A stretch of 64,000 nt of DNA from Actinomarinicola tropica (GTDB taxonomy: Bacteria > Actinomycetota > Acidimicrobiia > Acidimicrobiales > SKKL01), in contig NZ_CP045851.1 of assembly GCF_009650215.1 (NCBI RefSeq), forward strand, positions 3,499,001 through 3,563,000. Direction: 5' to 3'. A model generated the notes under the pieces. The model was not told the origin of the DNA. It searched no databases and saw only the letters and a program-made list of their open reading frames with translations. Position numbers and translations under genes: made by a program. Below, in pieces: positions 23,295-38,008 of this stretch. Positions within the stretch are counted from its first letter, which is position 1. Each line of letters starts with the position of its first letter.

Positions 23295-23921
23295 CTAGGG
23301 GATCAGGTAGATGATCGTGAAGATGAGGATCCACACGATGTCGACGAAGTGCCAGTACAGGCCCACGATCTCGACGGCCTCGGAGCGCTCCTCCGACAGG
23401 CGGCCACGGATCGAGAGCACGAGCAGCGACAGCAGCATGATGATGCCGATCGTGACGTGCACGCCGTGGAACCCGGTGAGCGTGTAGAAGGCCGATCCGA
23501 AGATGTTCGTCGTGAAGCCGAGGCCCTCGCGGTAGAACGCGGTGAACTCGTAGATCTGGCCGGCGATGAAGGTCGAGCCGAGCAGCGCAGTGGTGAGGAT
23601 CCAGAGCCGGAAGCGCCGGTGGTCGGCCTTCTGGATGGCGGCGAGGGCCAGCACCATCGTGAGCGAGCTCATCAGCAGCACGAACGACGAGGCCGACGTG
23701 AACGGGATGTCGAACACGTCGCGGGGGCTGATGCCGCCCTCGGGGACCCGGTCCTTGTACAGCAGGTAGGTGGAGATCAGGCCGCCGAAGAGCATGCACT
23801 CCGAGCCCAGGAACACCCACATCGCCATCTTGTTGTTGGAGATGCCGGTGGAGGTGGGGTGCCCCCCGACGTGGGTGGCGGGGTCGTAGCCGACGGCCGC
23901 GGCGGTGGTCGTCTCAGCCAA
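23295..23921 (-). CDS. ctaE: Cytochrome c oxidase subunit III
   Basis: A 208-residue protein with five membrane segments. Conserved pieces are MWVFLGSECMLFGGL near residue 33, GFHGVHVTIGIIML and the closing VGLYWHFVDIVWILIF. The start is TTG at 23921, supported by an AGGAGG six bases upstream; the first eight bases overlap the end of ctaD. It stabilises subunit I and its proton uptake (family knowledge). Confidence 0.92.
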   Translation of the reverse strand: MAETTTAAAVGYDPATHVGGHPTSTGISNNKMAMWVFLGSECMLFGGLISTYLLYKDRVPEGGISPRDVFDIPFTSASSFVLLMSSLTMVLALAAIQKADHRRFRLWILTTALLGSTFIAGQIYEFTAFYREGLGFTTNIFGSAFYTLTGFHGVHVTIGIIMLLSLLVLSIRGRLSEERSEAVEIVGLYWHFVDIVWILIFTIIYLIP

Positions 23922-25941
23922 CGGGGGCCTCCTCGGGCTGCTCGGCGGTCTCCGCCGTGGCGGTCTCGTCGGCGGTGTCGTCGGTGACCTCGCCGGTCGG
24001 GGCGTCGTCGTGGTGGTCGTCACCGTGGGCGTGGTCGACGTCGTCGGGCGGCTCGATGGCCCAGCCCCAGAGGCCGATCACGGTGATGATGCCGCCGACG
24101 ATCGCGAGGATCTCGGTGTAGATGAGGCCCCAGCCGATGAGCGGCAGGCCGAAGGCGGTGACGAGGGGCCAGTACGACGGCGACGGCAGGTGCACGCCGG
24201 TGCCGTCGCCCGGCTGGGCGATCTCGTCACCGGTGGCGACCCGACGGACGCGGCCGTCCTCGTCCTCGGCGTACTTGCGGTGCCAGAACTCGTCGAGGTG
24301 GGTGACGGTGACGGTCTCGTCGAAGTTGTGCGTAGGGGTCGGCGACTGGACCATCCACTCGAGGCTGCGGGCGTCCCACGGGTCGGGGCCCGGGGCGGCC
24401 ACGGACTGGGCCTGCTTCTTGCTGACGAAGATGTTGATGATGAACAGGAGCACCGAGAGGGCGATGATGAACGCACCGACGGTGGCGACCATGTTCCAGA
24501 GCTCGAAGCCGTAGTTCTCGTCGTAGGTGAACACGCGGCGGCTCATGCCCTGGAGGCCGAGGATTTGCATCGGGCCGAACGTCAGGTTGAAGCCGATGAG
24601 CAGGGTCCAGAAGTTCACCTTGCCCCAGCGTTCGTTCAGCATGTAGCCGAACGCCTTCGGCCACCAGAAGTAGAAGCCCGACATGAAGCCGAAGAAGGCG
24701 CCGCCGAACAGCACGTAGTGGAAGTGGGCGACGATGTAGTAGGTGTCGGTCTGCTGGGTGTCGGCCGGGGCCACGGCGTGGGTGACGCCGGAGAGGCCGC
24801 CGATGGTGAACATCGTGATGAGGCCGATCGCGAACAGCATCGAGGCCGTGAAGCGCAGGTGACCGCCCCACATCGTGGCGATCCAGTTGAGGATCTTCAC
24901 GCCGGTGGGCACGGCGATGAACATCGTCGCGAGCGAGAACGCCGCCACCGACAGCGGGCCGATGCCGGAGGCGAACATGTGGTGCGCCCACACGCCGAAG
25001 CCCATGAAGGCGATGGCGATGCCGGAGAACACCATGAACGGGTAGCCGAAGATCGGCTTGCGGGAGAACACCGGCACGGTCTCGGACACGATGCCGAACG
25101 CCGGGAGGATCATCAGGTACACCTCGGGGTGACCGAAGATCCAGAAGAGGTGCTGCCACAGGAGCGGATCGCCACCGGCCTCGACGTTGAAGAAGTTGGC
25201 GCCGTAGAGGCGGTCCATGGCGAGCAGGACCTGGGCGACGGTGAGGACCGGGATCGCGAACAGCAGCAGGAACTGGGTGACCAGGGCCATCCAGGTGAAC
25301 ACCGGCATCTTCATCATCGTCATGCCCGGCGCCCGCATGTTGATGACGGTGGTGATGAGGTTCACCGCACCGGACAGCGAGGAGATGCCGGTGATGATGA
25401 GGCCCATGTTCCAGAAGTCGATGCCGTTGTTCGGCGAGAAGACGACGCCGGAGTTCGGGGCGTAGTTGAACCAGCCGCCGTCGGGGGCGTGGCCGAGGAG
25501 CCAGGCCGAGTTCAGCAGGATGCCGCCGCCGAGCAGGCACCAGAAGCTGAAGGCGTTGATCCGCGGGAACGCGACGTCACGGGCACCGATCTGCAACGGG
25601 ATCAGGTAGTTCGCGAACGCCGAGCCGAGCGGCATGACGACGAGGAAGATCATCGTCGTGCCGTGCATCGTGAAGACCTGGTTGTACAGGTCGGCGGACA
25701 GCAGGTCGTTGTTCGGCACGGCCAGCTGGAGGCGGATGAGCAGCGCCTCGATGCCGCCGATGATCAGCCAGAAGATGGCCGATGCGCCGTACATGATGCC
25801 GATCTTCTTGTGGTCGACCGTGGTCAGCCACGAGCGCCAACCGGTCTCCGCCGTCGGACGTCGGAAGACGCCGAGGACCGGCGCGGGGCGCGACGTCTCG
25901 CCGGAGGGGAGTGCCAGTGGGCGATCCTCGGGGATGGTCAT
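23914..25941 (-). CDS. ctaD: Cytochrome c oxidase subunit I (A-type heme-copper oxidase)
   Basis: A 675-residue catalytic subunit. All metal ligands are visible: low-spin heme His93 and His408, high-spin heme His406, and CuB ligands His271 (in HPEVY, with Tyr275), His320 and His321 (WAHHMF). Glu273 and Tyr275 are the canonical neighbours. The C-terminal part carries two further hydrophobic segments and a long acidic/His-rich tail (HAHGDDHHDD), an extension common in actinobacterial caa3 enzymes. It lies 44 bases after ctaC. It reduces O2 to water and pumps protons in the cytoplasmic membrane. Confidence 0.96.
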   Translation of the reverse strand: MTIPEDRPLALPSGETSRPAPVLGVFRRPTAETGWRSWLTTVDHKKIGIMYGASAIFWLIIGGIEALLIRLQLAVPNNDLLSADLYNQVFTMHGTTMIFLVVMPLGSAFANYLIPLQIGARDVAFPRINAFSFWCLLGGGILLNSAWLLGHAPDGGWFNYAPNSGVVFSPNNGIDFWNMGLIITGISSLSGAVNLITTVINMRAPGMTMMKMPVFTWMALVTQFLLLFAIPVLTVAQVLLAMDRLYGANFFNVEAGGDPLLWQHLFWIFGHPEVYLMILPAFGIVSETVPVFSRKPIFGYPFMVFSGIAIAFMGFGVWAHHMFASGIGPLSVAAFSLATMFIAVPTGVKILNWIATMWGGHLRFTASMLFAIGLITMFTIGGLSGVTHAVAPADTQQTDTYYIVAHFHYVLFGGAFFGFMSGFYFWWPKAFGYMLNERWGKVNFWTLLIGFNLTFGPMQILGLQGMSRRVFTYDENYGFELWNMVATVGAFIIALSVLLFIINIFVSKKQAQSVAAPGPDPWDARSLEWMVQSPTPTHNFDETVTVTHLDEFWHRKYAEDEDGRVRRVATGDEIAQPGDGTGVHLPSPSYWPLVTAFGLPLIGWGLIYTEILAIVGGIITVIGLWGWAIEPPDDVDHAHGDDHHDDAPTGEVTDDTADETATAETAEQPEEAPVG

Positions 25942-25985: not shown

Positions 25986-27131
25986 TCAGTCGTTGCGGGG
26001 ACCGGTCCACACCGGTCGGTCGGCGGTGGAGAGCAGGTACTCGACGAGGTCGTCGATCTGGTTCTCGGTCAGGTTGAGGTTGGGCATGCCGCGCTGGTCC
26101 TCGGGGGCCATCGGCTTCTCCGCCGGGGGGTTCCGCAGCCAGGCCTCGAGCTGGCCGCGGTTGACGTCGCCGTTCTCGTCGTAGAGCTCGAAGATGCCGC
26201 CGGCGTAGCTGCGCCGGGAGGCGAAGTGCGTGAGGTCCGGCGCGACGCCCGCCACGAGCGGCACCGGGTTGACGTCACCCGGCTGGGTCTCGAGGCCGCG
26301 GATGGAGTGGCAGCTCGCGCAGTTCGCCTCGAACGCCTCGCGGCCACGGGCCTGCGACGCGGTCTCCGGCTCGCCGACGTCCTGGGCCTGCTCCTCGAGC
26401 CAGGCGTCGTACTCGTCCTGCGGCAGGGCGATGACCCGCATGCGCATCACGCCGTGGCTGAGGCCGCAGAACTCGGTGCACTGGCCGAAGAAGTAGCCGG
26501 GCTCGTCGCTCTCCATGCTCAGCGTGTGGGTGCGACCGGGGACGGCGTCGCGCTTGCCGTTGAGGCGGGGGATCCAGAAGCTGTGGATCACGTCGTTCGA
26601 CTCGATCGACAGGTTCACCTGGCGACCGGCGGGGATGACCATCTCGGTGGCGGTGGAGAAGTCGAACTCGCCGTCGTCGTCGACGTCGTAGTTGAACTGC
26701 CACCACCACTGGTTGCCGACCACGTTGATGTCGACCGCGTCGTCGTCGCGCTTCTCGAGCTCGAAGATCGTGACGAGGGTGAACACGGCGACGAAGGCGA
26801 GGATGACGGCGGGGAGGATCGTCCAGCCGAGCTCGAGCGGCGTGTTGCCGTGGGTCTGCGTCGGCACGACGCTGTCGTCGTCGCCCTTGCGCTGGCGGAA
26901 GCGCCACGCGATGACCAGCACGCCGACCTCGACGAGCACGAACACCACACCGGCGATCAGGAAGACCGGCCCGACGAGGTCCTGGATGGTGCGAGCGGCG
27001 GGGCCCTCGGGCTCGAGCGTGTCGAGCGGCGCGTCCTCGGCGCAGCCGCTGAGGACCAGCACCAGGCCGGCCAGGCCGGCGAGGAGCCAGGACCGCCGTG
27101 AGCGGTGGGAGGTCGTCTTCACGGAGGTCAT
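25986..27131 (-). CDS. ctaC: Cytochrome c oxidase subunit II fused to cytochrome c (caa3 type)
   Basis: A 381-residue lipoprotein. The lipobox is LSGC with Cys30; two membrane helices follow. The CuA site is complete: His183, Cys218, Glu220, Cys222, His226 and Met229 (in GQCTEFCGLSHGVM). A C-terminal cytochrome c domain has CASCH at 271-275 and a candidate axial Met in RGMPNL. This fusion defines a caa3-type oxidase that takes electrons without a separate soluble cytochrome. Its start overlaps the stop of the upstream acid-tailed membrane protein gene by four bases. Confidence 0.95.
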   Translation of the reverse strand: MTSVKTTSHRSRRSWLLAGLAGLVLVLSGCAEDAPLDTLEPEGPAARTIQDLVGPVFLIAGVVFVLVEVGVLVIAWRFRQRKGDDDSVVPTQTHGNTPLELGWTILPAVILAFVAVFTLVTIFELEKRDDDAVDINVVGNQWWWQFNYDVDDDGEFDFSTATEMVIPAGRQVNLSIESNDVIHSFWIPRLNGKRDAVPGRTHTLSMESDEPGYFFGQCTEFCGLSHGVMRMRVIALPQDEYDAWLEEQAQDVGEPETASQARGREAFEANCASCHSIRGLETQPGDVNPVPLVAGVAPDLTHFASRRSYAGGIFELYDENGDVNRGQLEAWLRNPPAEKPMAPEDQRGMPNLNLTENQIDDLVEYLLSTADRPVWTGPRND

Positions 27132-28027
27132 TCCTCGGTGTCTCCAGCGTCGGTGTCAGCGTCGGAGTCGTCCGACTGGTCCTCGTCGGTGTCCACGGAG
27201 GACTCGCCCTCGTCCTGGGCATCGTCCTCGTCCAGCGCGTCGTCGGCGCCGCCGTGGTCCTCCACATCTTCGCCGTGCCCACCCACGTAGTGGAAATCGC
27301 GCTCGCCGGCACCGATGCCGACGATGCCGCCGACCACCAGGGACACACCGCCGAGGAGCAGCACGGCCGTGATCACGCCCCGGCTCACGGCCGGTCGGGA
27401 GGCGATCAAGGCGGCGACGCCCATGATGAGGATGGCCGTCACCGAGAAGACCGCGATCGAGCCCCACTTCGAGAGGGCGAGCAGCATCCGGGAGGCGAAG
27501 AAGACGAAGGTGGCGATGCCGATGATCGCGACGGCCGGGATCTCGACCGGCTGCATCACCCGGTTGCGGATCGCACGGTTCGCCGCCGGATCGCCGGTGG
27601 CCCGGTCGGCCCAGGCGGTGGCGGTCCACTCGACGGCGGCGATGACGAGCAGGGCGATGCCCACGCCGGTGAGCAGCGGCTCGACCACGAGGCCGATGAC
27701 GACGGCGACCACGCCGAAGGCGGTGACGACCGGCCAGAGCGAGAGGTCGGTGTGCGGGCGGGCGGCGGGCAGGGCCTCGGTGCCGGCGACCTGGGCGACG
27801 GCCTCGGCCTCGGCGTCGCGGAACGCCGTGGTGACCACGCCGTACGTGATCGAGGTGGCCGCGGTGGACACGAGGACCACGTAGCCGAGCTGGTCGCCGA
27901 CCGCGCCGCTCCAGCCGAACGACAAGACCCCCACCGGCGAACCGCCCGAGGCCAGGCCGAGCACGGCGGCGGCCACGAGGGCGAAGGCGGCGAGTCCGAA
28001 GTAGACCTTTGCTCCGACAGTGATCAT
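27128..28027 (-). CDS. Membrane protein with long acidic C-terminal tail, in the oxidase operon
   Basis: A 299-residue protein with about seven hydrophobic helices up to residue 235, then a roughly 60-residue tail made largely of Asp, Glu and Ser (DALDEDDAQDEGESSVDTDE). The first helix region KVYFGLAAFALVAAAVLGLASG and the whole layout do not match any oxidase subunit I can name. It is co-transcribed between the COX III paralog and ctaC (9-base gap and 4-base overlap). Likely a lineage-specific accessory subunit of the oxidase (inference). Confidence 0.7.
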   Translation of the reverse strand: MITVGAKVYFGLAAFALVAAAVLGLASGGSPVGVLSFGWSGAVGDQLGYVVLVSTAATSITYGVVTTAFRDAEAEAVAQVAGTEALPAARPHTDLSLWPVVTAFGVVAVVIGLVVEPLLTGVGIALLVIAAVEWTATAWADRATGDPAANRAIRNRVMQPVEIPAVAIIGIATFVFFASRMLLALSKWGSIAVFSVTAILIMGVAALIASRPAVSRGVITAVLLLGGVSLVVGGIVGIGAGERDFHYVGGHGEDVEDHGGADDALDEDDAQDEGESSVDTDEDQSDDSDADTDAGDTEE

Positions 28028-28036
28028 TCCCGTGCC

Positions 28037-28654
28037 TTACTTGATGTTGTAGATGGCCGCCCAGATCATGGCGTAGGCGAGGACGCTGGCGTGCCAGAAC
28101 AGGGCGGCGGCGGTCAGTCCCTCGTGGTCCTTGGCGGAGTACTGGCCGCCGAGGGCCCGGAAGGACATGAGGGCGAGGAAGATCATGGCCACGACGAGCA
28201 TGACGATCTGGGTGCCGGTGATGGCGTAGATCAGCACCGCCTGCACCGCGTGCTCGCCGGCGACCTCCCAGCCCATCCAGCCGTAGAGGAAGGAGGCCTG
28301 GTTGAGGAAGGCGGCGGACAGCACGAGCGTGATGCCCGCGGCGAGGTAGGTGTTCATCCGGTCGTCGTGGGCGATCGCCCACTTGACCCACTGCACGGTG
28401 ACCGACGACATCAGCAGCGTGACGAGCATGACCGACGCCGGGGTGAGGGGGATGGTGCCGGCGCCGTCGGGGATCCACCCCTCGCCGAACTCCTGGCGGT
28501 TGACGGCGTAGAGGGCGAACATGCCGGCGAACGCCATGGCGATGGCGCCGACGGTGAGGGCGGTGCCGATCAGCAGCAGCCGGGGCCGGGCCGGCTCGGC
28601 CGGCGGGGCCTCGGGGATGAGGTCGGTGACGACGGCGGGGGTGGCGGCGCTCAT
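28037..28654 (-). CDS. Cytochrome c oxidase subunit III paralog
   Basis: A 205-residue membrane protein with five to six helices. It ends GLTAAALFWHASVLAYAMIWAAIYNIK, matching the last helix of subunit III (YWHFVDIVWILIF), and contains MLVTLLMSSVTVQWVKWAI comparable to the COX III second or third helix. It is a second, diverged subunit III next to a diverged subunit I; its ATG overlaps that gene's stop by four bases. It presumably forms a I-III sub-complex with that paralog. Confidence 0.75.
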   Translation of the reverse strand: MSAATPAVVTDLIPEAPPAEPARPRLLLIGTALTVGAIAMAFAGMFALYAVNRQEFGEGWIPDGAGTIPLTPASVMLVTLLMSSVTVQWVKWAIAHDDRMNTYLAAGITLVLSAAFLNQASFLYGWMGWEVAGEHAVQAVLIYAITGTQIVMLVVAMIFLALMSFRALGGQYSAKDHEGLTAAALFWHASVLAYAMIWAAIYNIK

Positions 28655-30252
28655 GCCGACGCGTCCTCCTGGGCGGTCTCGGTGAACAGCGGCCGCTCGT
28701 CGGTCACGACGGGCGCCTCGGGGAAGTTGCCGCGGACGGGGGGCGAGGCGGTGGCCCACTCCAGGGTGTGACCGCCCCACGGGTCGTTCGGGACGTCCTC
28801 GCTCGAGCGCCGGCCCTGGAAGAGGGCGGCGACGCCGGCGAGCACGCCGAGCAGGACGAGGGCGACGCCGGCCGCACCAGCGAGGTTCAGCGCCTCGACG
28901 CCGTCGCGAGCGGTGGCGACCTCGGGGGCGTCAGGCTGGTCGAGCGCACCCGCGGCCAGCATGGCGGCGCCGGCGAGCAGGGAGCCGAGGGCGACGACGG
29001 CGGGGACGAGCTTGCCCGGGCCGTCGACGAGGAGGCGGCCGTAGACCTTCGGGGCCCAGAACCACGTGCCGGCGAACACCGCGACGATCACCGAGCCGAC
29101 GACCAGGTGGAGGTGGCCGAGCGCCCAGGTGGTGCCCATGAGGTCGAGGGGTTCGACGACGTGGACGGCCCCGGCGGCGGTGGCCGCGACGAGCACGAGG
29201 CCGGCGGTGAGGGCGCCGATGACCGGGGCGGCCGGGCGGAGGCCGCCGCGCATGGTCTCGCCGGAGAGGGCGAGCACCATCAGGACCGGGAGGATGGCGA
29301 GCACGCCCATGGCGACGAACAGCGGATCGTCGGCGATCGCCATCGGGTCGTCGCGCAGCGCACCGAGCTGGGCCCACGAGCCGATGGCCAGGGCGCCGAA
29401 GAGGCCGATGGCGACCTGGACCGCACCCTGCATCCGCTGCCGGGCACCGGCGAACACGGGGATGACGTCGGCGATGATGCCGAGCACGGGGATGGCGATC
29501 ACGTAGATCTGCGGCTGGGAGACGAGCCAGGAGAGCTGCGGGAGGATCGCCTCGTTGGCGCCGAAGAGCGCCTGGCCGTACCGGTGGTCGATGTAGATGA
29601 CGAGCAGGCTGCCGATGGCGACGGGGAAGGTCAGCAGCCACACCGACCCGGCGACGAGCATCGAGAAGCTGAAGAGCGGGGTGCGGCGCAGGGTCATGCC
29701 CGTGGTGCGCAGGCCGAGGACGGTGGTGACGACGCACACGGTGGCGAGCAGCAGGGCGGCGATCACGACGATCGTGGCGAGCAGCCACAGGTCGGTGCCC
29801 TTCAGGTCGCTGCCGCCGGGGCCGCCGCCGACGAGGTAGCCGGCGATCCACAGGGCGCCGCCGAGGGCCCAGGTCCAGAAGGCGAGGTTGGCCGCCCGCC
29901 CGAAGGCCAGCGTGGTGGCGCCGACCTGGAGGGGCACGACCACCATCGCCAGGCCGAGCAGCGCGGGGATGGCGAACAGGACGACGAGCCCGATGCGGTG
30001 GGCGCTCACCATCTGGGTGAGCACGTCGGCGTCGAGCAGCGAGATGCTGTCGACCGTCGTGCGCTCGATGTCGAGCAGCAGGCCGACGGCCAGGGCGGCG
30101 ACGAGCCCGATGAAGGAGCCGCCGAGGAACATCCGGCCGACGCGGGCACCGTCGCCGGTGCCGACGACGTTGGCGAGATCGCCGAACTCGCCCTCGGCGG
30201 GGGCCTCGGTGCCGGTGGTGCCGGTCGCCGGTGCGGTCTCGGTGATCGTCAT
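28651..30252 (-). CDS. Heme-copper oxidase subunit I paralog lacking all CuB ligands
   Basis: A 533-residue homolog of COX I with about 12 helices. Aligned to the canonical subunit encoded at 23914-25941, the heme ligands are kept: His85 (MVSAHRIGLV), His380 and His382 (WALGHLHLVV). The copper site is gone: the HPEVY His is Gln246 in SQPQIY, Glu is Gln248, and the WAHH pair is Gln295-Leu296 in SWAQLG. Tyr250 is retained. Neighbouring landmarks such as VVPLQVG, PVLGIIADVIPVF and TWFWAPKVYGRLL align well, so this is a true paralog. It should bind two hemes but not reduce O2 by the known mechanism. It is first in the ctaC-F operon. Confidence 0.88.
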   Translation of the reverse strand: MTITETAPATGTTGTEAPAEGEFGDLANVVGTGDGARVGRMFLGGSFIGLVAALAVGLLLDIERTTVDSISLLDADVLTQMVSAHRIGLVVLFAIPALLGLAMVVVPLQVGATTLAFGRAANLAFWTWALGGALWIAGYLVGGGPGGSDLKGTDLWLLATIVVIAALLLATVCVVTTVLGLRTTGMTLRRTPLFSFSMLVAGSVWLLTFPVAIGSLLVIYIDHRYGQALFGANEAILPQLSWLVSQPQIYVIAIPVLGIIADVIPVFAGARQRMQGAVQVAIGLFGALAIGSWAQLGALRDDPMAIADDPLFVAMGVLAILPVLMVLALSGETMRGGLRPAAPVIGALTAGLVLVAATAAGAVHVVEPLDLMGTTWALGHLHLVVGSVIVAVFAGTWFWAPKVYGRLLVDGPGKLVPAVVALGSLLAGAAMLAAGALDQPDAPEVATARDGVEALNLAGAAGVALVLLGVLAGVAALFQGRRSSEDVPNDPWGGHTLEWATASPPVRGNFPEAPVVTDERPLFTETAQEDASA

Positions 30253-30457: not shown

Positions 30458-31354
30458 TCACAGCGGCACCTCGACGAACTGGTCGAGGGCCATCGCACCG
30501 AACAGCAGGGTGACGTAGGTGATCGACCATCCGAAGAGCCGCATCGCCGCGCGCGTGGTGCCGGAGCGGTGCAGGGCCACCGCGAACCAGAGGAACAGGC
30601 CGCCGAGGACGACGGCGGCGGCGCCGTAGACCCAGCCCATCTCGGCCACGGGCCAGAAGACGATCGTCAGGGCCCACAGGAGCAGGGTGTAGCCGATGAT
30701 GCGGGTGGTCGTCGTCTTGAGCGAGGCCACCGAGGGCAGCATCGGCACGTCGACCGCGGCGTAGTCGTCCTTGTACTTCACGGCCAGCGCCCAGAAGTGG
30801 GGCGGCGTCCAGTAGAAGATGACGGCGAAGAGGACGACCGGCGCCCAGTCCAGGGTGCCGGTGACCGCCGACCAGCCGATGAGGACCGGGGCGGCACCCG
30901 CAGCGCCGCCGATGACGATGTTGCGCTCCGACGTGCGCTTCAGCCACAGCGTGTAGACGAAGACGTAGAAGAGGCAGGCGGCGACGGCGAGGACGGCGCT
31001 CAGCAGGTTCACGAACGCCCAGAGCCAGGCGAAGGCGAGGACCTCGATCGTCACGGCGAAGATCAGCGCGTTCCGCGGGGTCACGACGCCGGTGACGAGC
31101 GGGCGGTTCTTCGTGCGCTCCATCACGGCGTCGATGTCGCGGTCGACGTACATGTTGATGGCGTTGGCGCCGCCCGCGGCCAGGGTCCCGCCGACGACGG
31201 TCGCCACCATGAGCCAGATCGAGGGGAGGCCGCGCTCCGCCACGATCATCGTGGGGACCGTGGTGACGAGCAGGAGCTCGATGATCCTCGGCTTGGTGAG
31301 CGCCACGTAGCCCGCGATCTGCGCGCGGAGCGTCGGTGACCCGGTCGTGAGCAC
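30458..31354 (-). CDS. ctaB: Protoheme IX farnesyltransferase (heme O synthase)
   Basis: A 298-residue membrane prenyltransferase of the UbiA superfamily. The first Asp-rich motif is [15 protein letters not shown] (about residues 66-80), and the second conserved loop [26 protein letters not shown] is nearly invariant in CtaB. GTG 31354 is the start; upstream sequence is the divergent ctaA control region. It farnesylates heme B to heme O for the caa3 oxidase next door. Confidence 0.95.
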
Positions 31355-31449
31355 GGGTCGAGAGTAGGACCGAGTCGATCCGGAAGGCCAAAGCAGGTCG
31401 GTTCCGTGCCGTCCGTCATGCCGACTTCGTGGTGGCCGCCGCCCGGTCC

Positions 31450-31455
31450 TACCAT
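31450..31455 (+). promoter_or_regulatory. Probable leaderless -10 element (TACCAT) of ctaA
   Basis: TACCAT is followed after seven bases by the GTG at 31463. This is the classic actinobacterial leaderless arrangement and is the reason for preferring 31463 over a longer in-frame start at 31406. Confidence 0.55.
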
Positions 31456-31462
31456 CGACCCC

Positions 31463-32428
31463 GTGGCTCGCCGCACCTCCCCTGCCGAGCGGACGGTCTC
31501 GCCGGCGACGTTCCGGCGCATCACGCTGGCGGTCCTCGTCACCCAGGTCGTCATCGTGCTCACCGGTGCCGCGGTGCGGCTCACCGGCTCCGGCCTCGGC
31601 TGCTCCAACTGGCCGAACTGCACCGAGGAGCGGCTCGTCGCCCCGATGGAGTACAACGCGCTCATCGAGTTCGTGAACCGGCTGGTGTCCTTCCCCGTGC
31701 TCGCCGCGGTGCTGGTGGCCCTCTGGGCCGCCCGACGGCGCACCCCCTACCGGTCGGACCTGTTCACGCTCTCCGCCGTGATCCTCGGCGGCGTCGTCGC
31801 CCAGGTGCTGATCGGCGCCGTCGTCGTGTGGCTGCACCTCCTGCCCTCGACGGTGATCGTCCACTTCCTCATCTCGATGGTCCTCATCGGCACGTCGGTC
31901 GCGCTCCACCACCGAGCCAGGGCCGACCTCGACGCCGACGGCCGGCCGGGCGGGGGGCGTCGGGCGTGGGTCGCGAGCCGGTCGCACGGCCTGGCCAACC
32001 TGCTCGTCGTCGGCGCGGGCGCCGTCCTCGTGACCGGCACGCTCGTCACCGGGTCGGGCCCGCACGGCGGCGACGAGGAGGCCGAGCGGCTCGGCCTCTT
32101 CCTCCCGACGATCACCCGCGTGCACGCCGTCACCGTGTGGATCTTCCTCGCGGTGCTCGTCGTCACCCTGCTCGTCCTGCGTCGCGAAGGTGCGCCGCGC
32201 ACGGTGCTGCAGGCCGGCACGACGATCCTCGCCGTCGGCGTCGCCCAGGGCTCGATCGGCTACCTCCAGTACTGGAACGGCGTGCCCGAGCTGCTCGTGT
32301 TCCTGCACATCATCGGCGCCATGGCCGTGTGGGGCACCGCCGTCTGGTTCCGCCTGGAGCACGCGGCCAGCGCGCGCGCCGGCGTCGACGCGGGTCCGGT
32401 GCCCGTCCCCGCGGGAGGTGCGACGTGA
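31463..32428 (+). CDS. ctaA: Heme A synthase
   Basis: A 321-residue membrane protein with eight helices arranged as two four-helix halves. The first extracytoplasmic loop has [14 protein letters not shown] with the Cys pair typical of CtaA, followed by EFVNRLVSF (ENxHR-like His replaced by Asn), and later [19 protein letters not shown] and [10 protein letters not shown] supply candidate heme-ligand His. It converts heme O to heme A for the caa3 oxidase. It diverges from ctaB across 108 bases and its stop overlaps the GTG of clpS. Confidence 0.93.
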
Positions 32429-33215: not shown

Positions 33216-34723
33216 TCAGCCCACGTCGCGCCGGCAGGAGAGCAGCGCGTCCATCAGCGTGTCCTGCACCTGGCCGACCACCCGAGGCGGCGGAGCCGGT
33301 GCCACCAGCGCCTTCACCGGGACCGCCACCAGCAGCTCGTCCCAGACGCACACGCCCACCTCGGGCTCGAACCCCTGGTCGACGACCCCGTAGATCACGA
33401 ACGACCGCGTGGCCGGTAGGGCGAGCGCCTCCATCGGATCGACGACGATGCCCATGTCGCTGCCCGGACCGGGGTCGCACGACGTGACGTCGAACCGCTC
33501 GCCGCGGCGCACCGCCTCGGCGAGGCTCCGCTCCGGCGCGGCGGCCACCCAGTCCGACAGCGCGGCATCGAGGACGTCGGCACTGGTGGCGTCCCGCGTC
33601 GCCGCGACGATGCGGGTGCAGAGGTCGCCCTCGAGGTCACGGCTGGTGACGAAGGCGTCGCCGGCCCAGGCGTCGGTGGCGTGGAGAGCGGCGACGGGGT
33701 CGATGCGCGCCGCGAGCATCAGGTAGAGCGAGATGGCGCCGAGCTCGCCTTCGTCGATCACGACCGCGCCGTCGGCGACCGCCGGCGGCTCGACATCGAC
33801 CCGCTCGAACCGGTCGAGGTGGGCGACGACGTCGAACAGCGCCAGCTCGCTCGTGGGCGGTCACGCAGCAGGTCGTCGACCGCCGCCCAGCCGCCCTCGG
33901 CCTGGACGATGCCGACCAGCGGCTCGCCGAGGACGTAGGACGCCCCCATCGACGCCACCAGCACCCCGGGGATCTCCTCGGCGAACGCCGCGTCGGCCTG
34001 CGCCATCGCCGTCTCCTCGTAGGCGGTGAGGTCGCCCTCGGAGAGCTGGGCGACGTAGCGGGACTCGACGAGGCTGGCATCGCCCTCGACCACGGCTCGG
34101 AACGCCGCCGCCTCACCGCTGTCCTCCATGTCGCCGAGCCGGCCGAGGTCGACGTGCTGGTCCTGCAGCGCGTGGACGAGCTCGTGCACGAGGGTCGCCT
34201 CGAGGTTGACGTCCACCTCCGTGCCCCGGACGACGACCCGGTCGGTCAGCGGGTCGTAGAACGCCAGCGTCCCCGTGTCGTTGAGGTCGTCGAACGCACC
34301 GCCCAGGTCGACGTCGCCCTCGAGGAGCCCGAGGCTGCGCAGCATGCTCGCGGCCTCGTACATCTCGTCCATGCCCTCCTCGCCCTCGACCTCCATGCCT
34401 CCGCCGGCACGGGTGACCTCGCTGTACTCCTCGGGCGTCAGGAAGTCGATGTGGACCGGGTGGTCGAACCGCAGCTCCCGCTCCTCCTCCACGAACGCCA
34501 CCAGGTCGACCACGCGCGGGTCCCACTCGTCGGGGTGGTCGGGACCGCCGTCGGACACGAACGAGTAGGCGGCGACTCCACCGACGAGCACGACCGCGAC
34601 GACCGCAGCGATGCGCGCCACCCGGCGGCGGAGCAGGTCCTCCGCCGACGGTCCCCCCGCGGGGGTCGCCGACACCACCGGCGGGGGCGGCGGCGGGGCG
34701 GACGTCGGCATCACGCCGGGCAC
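33216..34723 (-). pseudogene. Frameshifted membrane-anchored zinc peptidase (HELVHALQ type)
   Basis: Two leftward frames (34723-33758 and 33761-33216) read as one protein interrupted by a one-base shift near 33855. The first frame has an N-terminal membrane helix and the zinc motif HELVHALQDQH (about residue 184). It runs correctly to DDLLRDRP, then turns to nonsense (RASWRCSTSS). The other frame continues from the same point as PTSELALFDVVAHLDRFERV and on into MIDEGELGAISLYLML. Related peptidases have P-P-T-S-x-E at this position. Adding one C to the CCC run would restore it. It is either a recent pseudogene or a base-calling error; the intact product would be about 500 residues. Confidence 0.75.
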
Positions 34724-35391: not shown

Positions 35392-36267
35392 TCATGCTGC
35401 GACGTGAGCCTCGGCGGGTGTGAAGGCGAGCTCGAACTCGACGGGGGTGAGTTTGCCGAGAGCACGTTGTCGGCGTCGACGGTTGTAGCGATGCTCGATC
35501 CAGAACGAGATGGCGTAGGCGAGCTCGCCGCGGGTCCGCCAGCGGCGCTGATCGAAAACGTTGCGCTGCAAGAGCGCGAAGAACGACTCCATGGCCGCGT
35601 TGTCCCCGGCCGAGGCGACGCGACCCATCGACCCGGTGAGCCCCGTCGCGTTGAGCACGGCGCGGAATGCTCGAGATCGGAACTGACCGCCGCGGTCGGA
35701 GTGAACCACGACGGTCTGGGTGGGTTCGCGTCGGGCGATCGCGGTCTTCAACGCGCCGGTCGCGAGCTGGGCGGTCATGCGGTCGCCGATGGCGTAGCCG
35801 ACGATCCGGTTGGAGAACACGTCTTTGATCGCGCAGCAGTAGAGCTTGCCCTCGACGGTGGGGTGCTCGGTGATGTCGGTCAACCAGACCTGGTCGGGTC
35901 GCTCAGCGGTGAAGTTCCGCTGCACGAGATCGTCGTGCACGGCCGGGCCGGGGCGCTTGGCGGACCGGCCCTTGCGCACGGTGGTCGACCACAGGCGCTG
36001 CTCACGGCACAGCCGCCACACCCGCCGCTCACCGACCCGATGTCCGGCGTGTTCGAGCTCATCGGCGAGGAACCGATACCCGAACGTCGGGTCCTCGGCG
36101 TGGAGATCGACAAGCGCGTTGATGAGGTGGGCGTCGTCGAGGTCGCGGTCCGAGCACGGCCGGGAACGCCACTTGTAGAACGCCTGGGCCGAAAAGCCGA
36201 GCACCCCGCAGGTCAACCGCACCGGGATCCCCTCGGCGGCCAGTTCTTGGACCAGCGGGTAGCTCAT
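35392..36267 (-). CDS. IS3-family transposase OrfB (DDE integrase)
   Basis: A 291-residue transposase. It has an HTH_21-like region (NALVDLHAEDPTFGYRFLADEL) and the catalytic triad in VWLTDITEH (D), VVHSDRGGQF (D) and DNAAMESFFALL (E). The closing HRYNRRRRQRALGKLTPVEFE is the usual IS3 end. Its start overlaps the stop of orfA by four bases. All catalytic residues are present, so it appears functional, although the element's right end is interrupted. Confidence 0.95.
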   Translation of the reverse strand: MSYPLVQELAAEGIPVRLTCGVLGFSAQAFYKWRSRPCSDRDLDDAHLINALVDLHAEDPTFGYRFLADELEHAGHRVGERRVWRLCREQRLWSTTVRKGRSAKRPGPAVHDDLVQRNFTAERPDQVWLTDITEHPTVEGKLYCCAIKDVFSNRIVGYAIGDRMTAQLATGALKTAIARREPTQTVVVHSDRGGQFRSRAFRAVLNATGLTGSMGRVASAGDNAAMESFFALLQRNVFDQRRWRTRGELAYAISFWIEHRYNRRRRQRALGKLTPVEFELAFTPAEAHVAA

Positions 36268-36548
36268 TTTGGGAGCTGGTCCTTGGCGAAGTACGCCGCC
36301 GCACGGCGCAGGATCTCGTTCTCCATCTCCAGCCGGCGTTTCTCGCGGCGCAGCTGCACCAGCTCGGACTGCTCCGCGGTCGTGAGACCGTCGCGGACGC
36401 CGTCGTCGACGTCGGCCTGGCGCATCCAGCGCCGCACCGACTCGACCGAGATGTCGAAATCGGCCGCGACCTCGTTCAGGGTCAGATCACCCCGGCGCGC
36501 GACGCGCACCACGTCACGCTTGAACTCGGGAGGGAACTTCTTGGGCAT
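36264..36548 (-). CDS. IS3-family transposase OrfA
   Basis: A 94-residue protein with a helix-turn-helix (LTLNEVAADFDISVESVRRWM) and a C-terminal leucine-zipper-like helix (LVQLRREKRRLEMENEILRR), ending AAAYFAKDQLPK, the standard OrfA end. It directs OrfAB binding to the IS ends. Confidence 0.95.
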   Translation of the reverse strand: MPKKFPPEFKRDVVRVARRGDLTLNEVAADFDISVESVRRWMRQADVDDGVRDGLTTAEQSELVQLRREKRRLEMENEILRRAAAYFAKDQLPK

Positions 36549-36601: not shown

Positions 36602-38008
36602 GGCGCTTCGCGTTTCAGCGGGGAGTGACGGTGGCGAGTAGCGCCCAGTTGGGGCGGCCGGCGTAGAGCAGGGCGCGGACGCGGTAGTGGGCGAAGCGGC
36701 GGAACCCGAAGGCCACCCGCTTGACCCTCTTGATGAGGTTGTTGATCGCCTCGGTCGGCCCGTTGGACACGCGAGCCCGGTGCCAGGCGGCGATCTGGTG
36801 GCGCCACTTGGTGATGGTGCGGCCGAGCTGGCGGACCTCGGGCGGGCAGGACTCGTCTTGGAGGTCGTGGCCGAGCCGATCGATGAACTCGGCAGCGACG
36901 GTGGGGTCGTCGATGTCGTAGATGCCGCGCACGGTCTCCTTGGCGTGCCACGCGGTGCGGACCTCGCCTCGGGGGTCACCGGCGTCGAGCAGTCCCAACA
37001 GCTTCTCTCTGCCCTTGTCGTCGAGGCGTTCGTCGGCTCGGGTCAACAGCCGCCTGGATCGGTAGAGCGGGTCGTCCTTGCGGCCCCGATGCCCCAGGGT
37101 GTCCTGCTGGACGCGGCGGCGGACCTCGTCGAGGCGCTGGTTGGCGAGCTTGATGAGATGGAACGGGTCGGCGACCTGGCCGGCGTCGGGCAGCATCGTG
37201 TCGAACGCGAGGCGCCACGGCCCCGACAGGTCCAGCACCGCCCAGGCGATCGCGTCACGCCATGTGACGGGCATGGCCGCCAACCACGCGCACAGCCCCG
37301 CCGAGGAGCGCCCTTCGATCACGTCGAGCAGCTGGCCCGAGGTGACATCGGTGATCGAGGTCGACCACGCCTGGGTCCGCCATCGACCCAGCCGGGCGAA
37401 CAGCACCTCATCGACCCCGAGCGCCGCCACCGCGCCGACCCGTGTCTGGTCGGCGTCGAGCAGCGCGGTCCCGTAGGCGATCACGGCGTCGTTGATCGCG
37501 TGCCAGTCCGCGCCGAGCTCAGCCGCGACATCGGACACGGCCCGGCCGTTGCGGCCGACCTGGCGGGTCGCCCACCGCCCAGCCCGGTCGGTCACCGACA
37601 ACCGCGGCGCGGCGATCCGCGGGTCCTCATGGGTCCACGACCCCTGCCGGCACCACCGCCTCGGACAGCAGAACCGGTGCTTGCGCCACCGCAACGTCAC
37701 CGGGCGGCCGAAGCAGGTGAGATCGACCAGCTCGACCACCGGCCGGTCCTTGACCCACGCCCGCTCCCCGCAGTTCGGACAGACCGGCGCGTCCACGATC
37801 GACTCGACGGTGATCTCGAGCCGGCCGACCAGCGGCTCGACCACCTCGAGGACCTTCACAGCGCCAAGACCGACAAGAAGCTCGCACGCGCGCGTAGCGT
37901 TGAACACAGCAGGGGCACCTCGGACTCGACGACGTCAGACATCGCCAAGTTCGCAGGGCCCCTGCTACGCGTCAGGGACCCTCACACCCCGCTCATCCGC
38001 GAAGCGCC
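36602..38008 (-). mobile_element. ISL3-family insertion sequence
   Basis: Inverted ends of 27 bases: left begins GGCGCTTCGCG and runs to GGGGAGTGA (36602-36628); the right end read inward begins GGCGCTTCGCG and runs to GGGGTGTGA (38008-37982). It is flanked by ACCAAACC (36594-36601) and CCCAAACC (38009-38016), a 7/8 match consistent with the 8-bp duplication made by ISL3 elements. Length 1407 bp, one transposase gene. Confidence 0.9.
36615..37907 (-). CDS. ISL3-family transposase
   Basis: A 430-residue transposase starting at GTG 37907. The N-terminal zinc ribbon has CPNCG and a CCPRRWC pair, followed by the HTH and the DDE domain: LGVDEVLFAR (D), VLDLSGPWRLAFDTMLPDAGQVADPFHLIKLAN (D) and SNGPTEAINNLIKRVKRVAFGFRRF (E). 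Complete and probably active. Confidence 0.93.
   Translation of the reverse strand: MFNATRACELLVGLGAVKVLEVVEPLVGRLEITVESIVDAPVCPNCGERAWVKDRPVVELVDLTCFGRPVTLRWRKHRFCCPRRWCRQGSWTHEDPRIAAPRLSVTDRAGRWATRQVGRNGRAVSDVAAELGADWHAINDAVIAYGTALLDADQTRVGAVAALGVDEVLFARLGRWRTQAWSTSITDVTSGQLLDVIEGRSSAGLCAWLAAMPVTWRDAIAWAVLDLSGPWRLAFDTMLPDAGQVADPFHLIKLANQRLDEVRRRVQQDTLGHRGRKDDPLYRSRRLLTRADERLDDKGREKLLGLLDAGDPRGEVRTAWHAKETVRGIYDIDDPTVAAEFIDRLGHDLQDESCPPEVRQLGRTITKWRHQIAAWHRARVSNGPTEAINNLIKRVKRVAFGFRRFAHYRVRALLYAGRPNWALLATVTPR

Follow-up and report, generated by a model that had tools for sequence, protein, structure and literature searches.

Three genes for paralogous oxidase subunits head the caa3 operon of Acidimicrobiales and may encode a non-catalytic partner of the enzyme

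The caa3 oxidase operon of Actinomarinicola tropica is headed by three intact genes on the minus strand (30252-27128), which encode what we consider, with moderate confidence, to be a non-catalytic 'pseudo-oxidase' partner of caa3, acting either as a subunit block or as an assembly platform. The genes, here called I', III' and IV', lie in a 64,000-nucleotide stretch of contig NZ_CP045851.1 (positions 3,499,001 to 3,563,000), the whole of which we refer to as the window. In this reading, the I'-III'-IV' module is a paralog of the COX I-III-IV core of an A-type oxidase and, made together with caa3, would serve as its structural partner. It could do so as a supernumerary block permanently bound beside CtaCDE, or by providing the platform for assembly of CtaC and CtaD.

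The module is flanked by the caa3 genes on one side and by haem synthesis genes on the other, with ctaB directly 5' of I' and ctaA divergent. An ATGA overlap joins I' to III' (28654-28651) and another joins IV' to ctaC (27131-27128), while a gap of 9 nt separates III' from IV'. This agrees with an earlier note on this DNA, made from the sequence alone, which described genes that overlap or nearly touch and run into ctaC. Its observation of a nearby canonical subunit I with every ligand in place is likewise correct, and CtaC has a cytochrome c domain. I' and this canonical ctaD are the only two COX1 genes of the genome. III' scores 47.2 bits against COX III (PF00510, cut-off 23.8), as expected from the claim that the paralog has its own COX III. 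Elsewhere in the window, an IS3-like element (35392-36548, minus strand; OrfA with HTH_Tnp_1, OrfB with an rve integrase core) adjoins an ISL3-family transposase gene (36615-37907, minus strand), and a gene near clpS and a DUF2017 gene (33758-34723, minus strand) weakly matches the putative metallopeptidase family PF20573 (E 1.9e-7).

Table 1. Features of the caa3 locus (window coordinates).
Feature	Description	Coordinates	Strand	Evidence or remark
I'	COX I paralog (pseudo-oxidase), 533 aa	28651..30252	-	residues, PF00115, predicted structure
III'	COX III paralog, 205 aa	28037..28654	-	PF00510, E 3.3e-12
IV'	299 aa; COX IV/CtaF-like half, second membrane half, acidic tail	27128..28027	-	profile/structure match
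ctaC	caa3 subunit II; CuA domain and cytochrome c domain	25986..27131	-	profile match
ctaD	canonical COX I; complete haem and CuB ligands, COX IV-like tail	23914..25941	-	
ctaE	canonical COX III	23295..24023	-	real start probably 3' of listed GTG
ctaB	UbiA family, haem O synthase	30458..31390	-	PF01040, E 1.3e-63; ORF span, precise start unfixed
ctaA	COX15-CtaA, haem A synthase	31406..32428	+	PF02628, E 7e-19

I' matches PF00115 with an E of 8e-49 and 167 bits, compared with 527 bits for the canonical CtaD, and scores 209.4 bits against the CtaD_CoxA equivalog TIGR02891, below its curated cut-off of 670.75. An AF2 model of I' (pLDDT 89, pTM 0.92) is a confident COX I fold, superposing on mycobacterial CtaD (9gy6_F) with a TM of about 0.85, and the fold-bearing COX I motifs PLQxGAxxxAFPR and GxTLEWxxxSPP are retained. 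The frame is intact and carries H85, Q246, Q295, L296, H380 and H382, exactly as the earlier note had them when it proposed a COX I paralog devoid of a copper site. None of the CuB His (HPEVY, HH) is present in the window I', and the possibility that homologs mostly keep them does not hold, as the His set is absent from 117/117 I' homologs. Position 246 is never His and is Gln in 83/117, and position 295 is Gln in 91/117 and well conserved by entropy. The earlier expectation that Gln246, Gln295 and Leu296 would all be conserved is thus borne out for the two Gln, both common, but not for Leu296. The D-channel Asp/Asn and the K-channel Lys were lost in all or nearly all of 38 I' tested; together with the Glu, these residues are replaced in the window I' and nearly all I'. 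The propionate Arg pair is similarly missing from the window I' and from all of the same 38. None of the three haem His is found in 85 of 115 scorable I', all three occur in 8, and the corresponding columns are variable within the family (86th, 70th and 99th entropy percentile). With CuB, the channel residues and most haem His lost, the residue pattern excludes oxidase or proton-pump function for the I' family, as well as haem binding as a conserved property.

The window copy itself retains all three haem His and so may bind haem in this species. Nevertheless, the diheme module put forward earlier is not a property of the family: the same-genus homolog has GQFQ where the window has GHLH, with His380 and His382 both lost, and other members have GQMN or GQMQ at this site. 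A two-state model on the tree gives the ancestor common to the window copy and its same-genus homolog a probability of His of 0.08 at position 380 and 0.14 at position 382, compared with about 1.0 for His85. A single base change (CAG to CAC) suffices for each of His380 and His382, and a reversible model is favoured over an irreversible one by 5 log units for His380 and by 0.55 for His382. Both residues are probably secondary Gln-to-His changes on this reconstruction, although His382 may have been retained rather than regained, given the small model gain at this position. I' is monophyletic and stands apart from canonical CtaD (SH-aLRT 100), and between the window and its sister it has diverged about three times as much as CtaD. 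Across twelve close pairs, the dN/dS of I' is 0.04-0.27; in the 11 of these 12 pairs without any haem ligand it is 0.04-0.21, and haem-less I' lineages are under purifying selection.

The third gene, previously described as encoding an unknown membrane protein, is recognisable as a fusion. Residues 6-137 of IV' are homologous to actinobacterial COX IV (PF12270; hhalign probability 97.1, E 5.6e-11). The window IV' does not match PF12270 at the curated cut-off of 26.9 bits, and the best IV' member reaches 24.6, which marks the protein as a divergent COX IV relative. Its best structural match, a weak one (E 0.12, probability 0.91), is 7q21_F from the C. glutamicum supercomplex, a chain that we take to be CtaF from its length of 143 aa. 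For the second half, the homolog is the membrane portion of a free-standing, caa3-associated 3-helix cupredoxin protein; in other classes of the phylum, the gene for that protein is located 3' of ctaG in the caa3 operon, frequently together with a TlpA-like gene. These matches point to a COX IV (CtaF)-like subunit fused to a cupredoxin-derived membrane half. In the other classes (loci L096-L115 and L130-L135), the layout is ctaC-ctaD-ctaE-ctaG-membrane cupredoxin, often with the TlpA-like gene and ctaB/ctaA; in the cupredoxin protein of L102 the domain is matched twice.

Where the window IV' ends in an acidic tail (25 Asp/Glu and no Lys/Arg in the last 55 residues), deep-branching relatives have a type-1-copper cupredoxin. 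The type-1 copper ligands (His...Cys-x-x-His-x(2,3)-Met) are found in 20/126 IV' and are absent in the window, and many of the deep-branching I' loci have a TlpA-like gene between IV' and ctaC. An Ilumatobacteraceae-type group (L048, L121-L129) has a longer IV' of 371-419 aa, with an extra C-terminal domain at the place of the cupredoxin that lacks type-1 copper ligands and gave no Pfam match in the three members scanned (L048, L121, L122). The bis-His pair of the low-spin haem is present in 16/18 cupredoxin-bearing members, compared with 9/104 without cupredoxin, while the a3-type His is kept in only 10/18 of the former. Counts like these are suggestive of a coupling between cupredoxin loss and haem loss; however, the association is not independent of phylogeny, with 4 independent changes that do not reach significance in an underpowered test, and we do not adopt it. 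With less certainty, the distribution of residues points to an ancestor that was a redox module, in which a low-spin haem site with two His ligands and a cupredoxin with type-1 copper were still present, both being lost later. Because the bis-His pair outlasts the a3-type His in cupredoxin-bearing members and is rare elsewhere, the order of loss suggested is CuB, then haem a3, then the cupredoxin and haem a.

An I' paralog, of a single kind throughout, was detected in more than half of 41 order relatives searched. A scan of the genome collection yielded 80 named loci; almost all bear the label Acidimicrobiales or Acidimicrobiia, Microthrix, Ilumatobacteraceae and Aquihabitans among them, and a few MAG names look wrong. 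I'-III'-IV' is therefore conserved as a family within the window's order, identified as Acidimicrobiales from the names of relatives. In relatives with enough flanking sequence, the gene order is ctaB-I'-III'-IV'-ctaC-ctaD-ctaE with ctaA divergent, so that the gene set does adjoin caa3 in relatives, a point on which the earlier note had allowed for the opposite. Among 158 evenly sampled genomes of the order, a caa3-type CtaD occurs in 96, IV' in 103 and both in 95. The sole genome with a caa3-type CtaD and no IV' is a fragmented MAG (G028) in which I' fragments are present, and only 8 genomes have IV' without a caa3-type CtaD, several being incomplete MAGs. A 4-nt in-frame overlap of IV' and ctaC is seen at 36/68 loci and an overlap of I' and III' at 29/74, suggesting coupled translation. 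The only clear operon break seen was at L052 (genome G032), where about 5 kb, with an apparent metal ABC transporter set and other genes, separates the pseudo-oxidase genes from ctaC. Order members that lack the module (L060-L065, for example G035 at L061) carry another oxidase of the aa3 type, and several of them encode a small COX IV as a gene of its own; within the order, presence of the module goes with oxidase type.

In the phylum sample, full-length IV' is confined to the window's order. Other classes of the phylum have caa3 operons without the module, which is hence not required for caa3 generally. CtaG was found in 40/42 genomes and Sco in many; with these copper factors present independently, the module is no substitute for them, and a replacement of CtaG was ruled out. 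A link to alternative complex III was also discarded: no NrfD match was obtained in the window genome, which has cytochrome b genes of the bc/b6f type at other sites. A mirror-tree analysis by partial correlation of evolutionary distances singled out no contacts for the module.

A module that persists without cofactors, nearly always with caa3 and often coupled to CtaC, is most simply explained by a structural role, although operon linkage and co-occurrence also fit a separate complex co-regulated with caa3. Contact of the module with CtaC, CtaD or CtaE is inferred, as are its place in the oxidase complex and the decision between a permanent subunit and an assembly platform. A less probable explanation is that I'-III'-IV' is an assembly factor only, which would bind nascent CtaC/CtaD transiently, while copper or haem is loaded, and would not form part of the mature oxidase. 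In favour of this, caa3 operons in other classes place the gene of the IV'-related membrane cupredoxin between ctaG and a TlpA-like gene, a TlpA-like gene separates IV' from ctaC in many deep members, and ctaB/ctaA adjoin the module; TlpA maintains the CuA cysteines in a reduced state (PMC9145763). Against this, CtaG and often Sco are already present in the genomes, the module persists in the window's clade despite the loss of both cupredoxin and TlpA, and the coupled translation with ctaC suggests that the module is made in nearly stoichiometric amounts, which would be uncommon in a chaperone.

We regard as improbable an electron-entry module, in which a low-spin haem of I' (H85/H382), perhaps with a second haem, would relay electrons between caa3 and either the bc complex or a cupredoxin. 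The frequency of the bis-His pair in cupredoxin-bearing relatives and the three haem His of the window copy would fit such a role. However, most I' have no haem His, His380 and His382 are lost in the same-genus sister and were improbable in the shared ancestor, the propionate Arg pair is gone, and the association of His with cupredoxin is the phylogeny-dependent one described above. As the haem His are variable or mostly lost, a family-wide role in electron entry, as a haem-based quinol or cytochrome dehydrogenase or as a gas sensor, all proposed in the earlier note, is unlikely. Slightly less probable again is a separate function on the COX I fold, as a gas sensor, a haem-insertion chaperone for other proteins or a transporter: the fold without catalytic metals and the fast divergence of I' are compatible with it, yet no signalling or transport domain is present, and the genes are nearly always inside the caa3 operon, co-occurring with caa3. 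Progressive loss of cofactor ligands could also reflect a decaying duplicate without function, which we find barely credible. Consistent with the earlier view that the paralog is not decaying, this is refuted at the family level by the low dN/dS, by synteny across the order, by intact frames in more than 100 genomes and by retention in 95/96 caa3 genomes.

A non-catalytic partner of caa3 could take a more specific form, which we put forward tentatively: the caa3 of Acidimicrobiales might be a hetero-oligomer of an active CtaD-CtaE core and a cofactor-free I'-III'-IV' pseudo-core. The chemistry would reside in one half; the other would have lost CuB, haem a3, the cupredoxin and haem a step by step and turned into a scaffold. 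If true, this would be the haem-copper counterpart of the CydA/CydB split, with intermediates of each step surviving. Metal centres define the haem-copper oxidases. Here, a COX I stripped of its metals, together with a III and a IV of its own, is a near-obligatory companion of the active enzyme across one bacterial order, found in soil, water and sludge. Should the module be a subunit, the composition of a core respiratory complex would change for bacteria that abound in fresh water, the sea and activated sludge (Microthrix and Ilumatobacter relatives), and the family would offer a natural series of intermediates from enzyme subunit to scaffold. For annotation, PF00115 matches of the I' type are not oxidases. 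No published description of such a paralog was found in the open-access papers searched, in itself weak evidence of absence; cupredoxins of the membrane are already known from COX clusters, and what is new here is a haem-copper oxidase core in a cofactor-free form.

Compared with A-type subunit I (CtaD/CoxA, TIGR02891; actinobacterial NF050116), I' shares the fold, the COX I motifs outside the pocket and the COX III and COX IV partners, but lacks the CuB ligands, the D/K channels, the propionate Arg pair, most haem His and a CuA subunit of its own. IV' resembles actinobacterial CtaF (PF12270) over residues 6-137 only, being fused to a second 3-helix membrane half with an acidic tail or cupredoxin. 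In cytochrome bd, the haem-less paralog CydB makes up half of the oxidase heterodimer and is paired directly with CydA. The likeness to a haem-less paralog beside an active one is an analogy of working only, as the families are unrelated and direct I'-CtaD pairing is putative. Membrane-bound cupredoxins of COX gene clusters were noted by Degli Esposti (PMC8239418). The caa3-associated protein of other Actinomycetota is homologous to the C-terminal half of IV', and deep IV' keep type-1 copper ligands; there it is a free-standing gene after ctaG, whereas IV' is fused to a COX IV paralog and has lost the copper ligands in the window's clade. Subunit I of the Aquifex haem-copper oxidase is able to form functional dimers (PMC8251803), although these are homodimers of active subunits, unlike the pairing of active and cofactor-free cores considered here.
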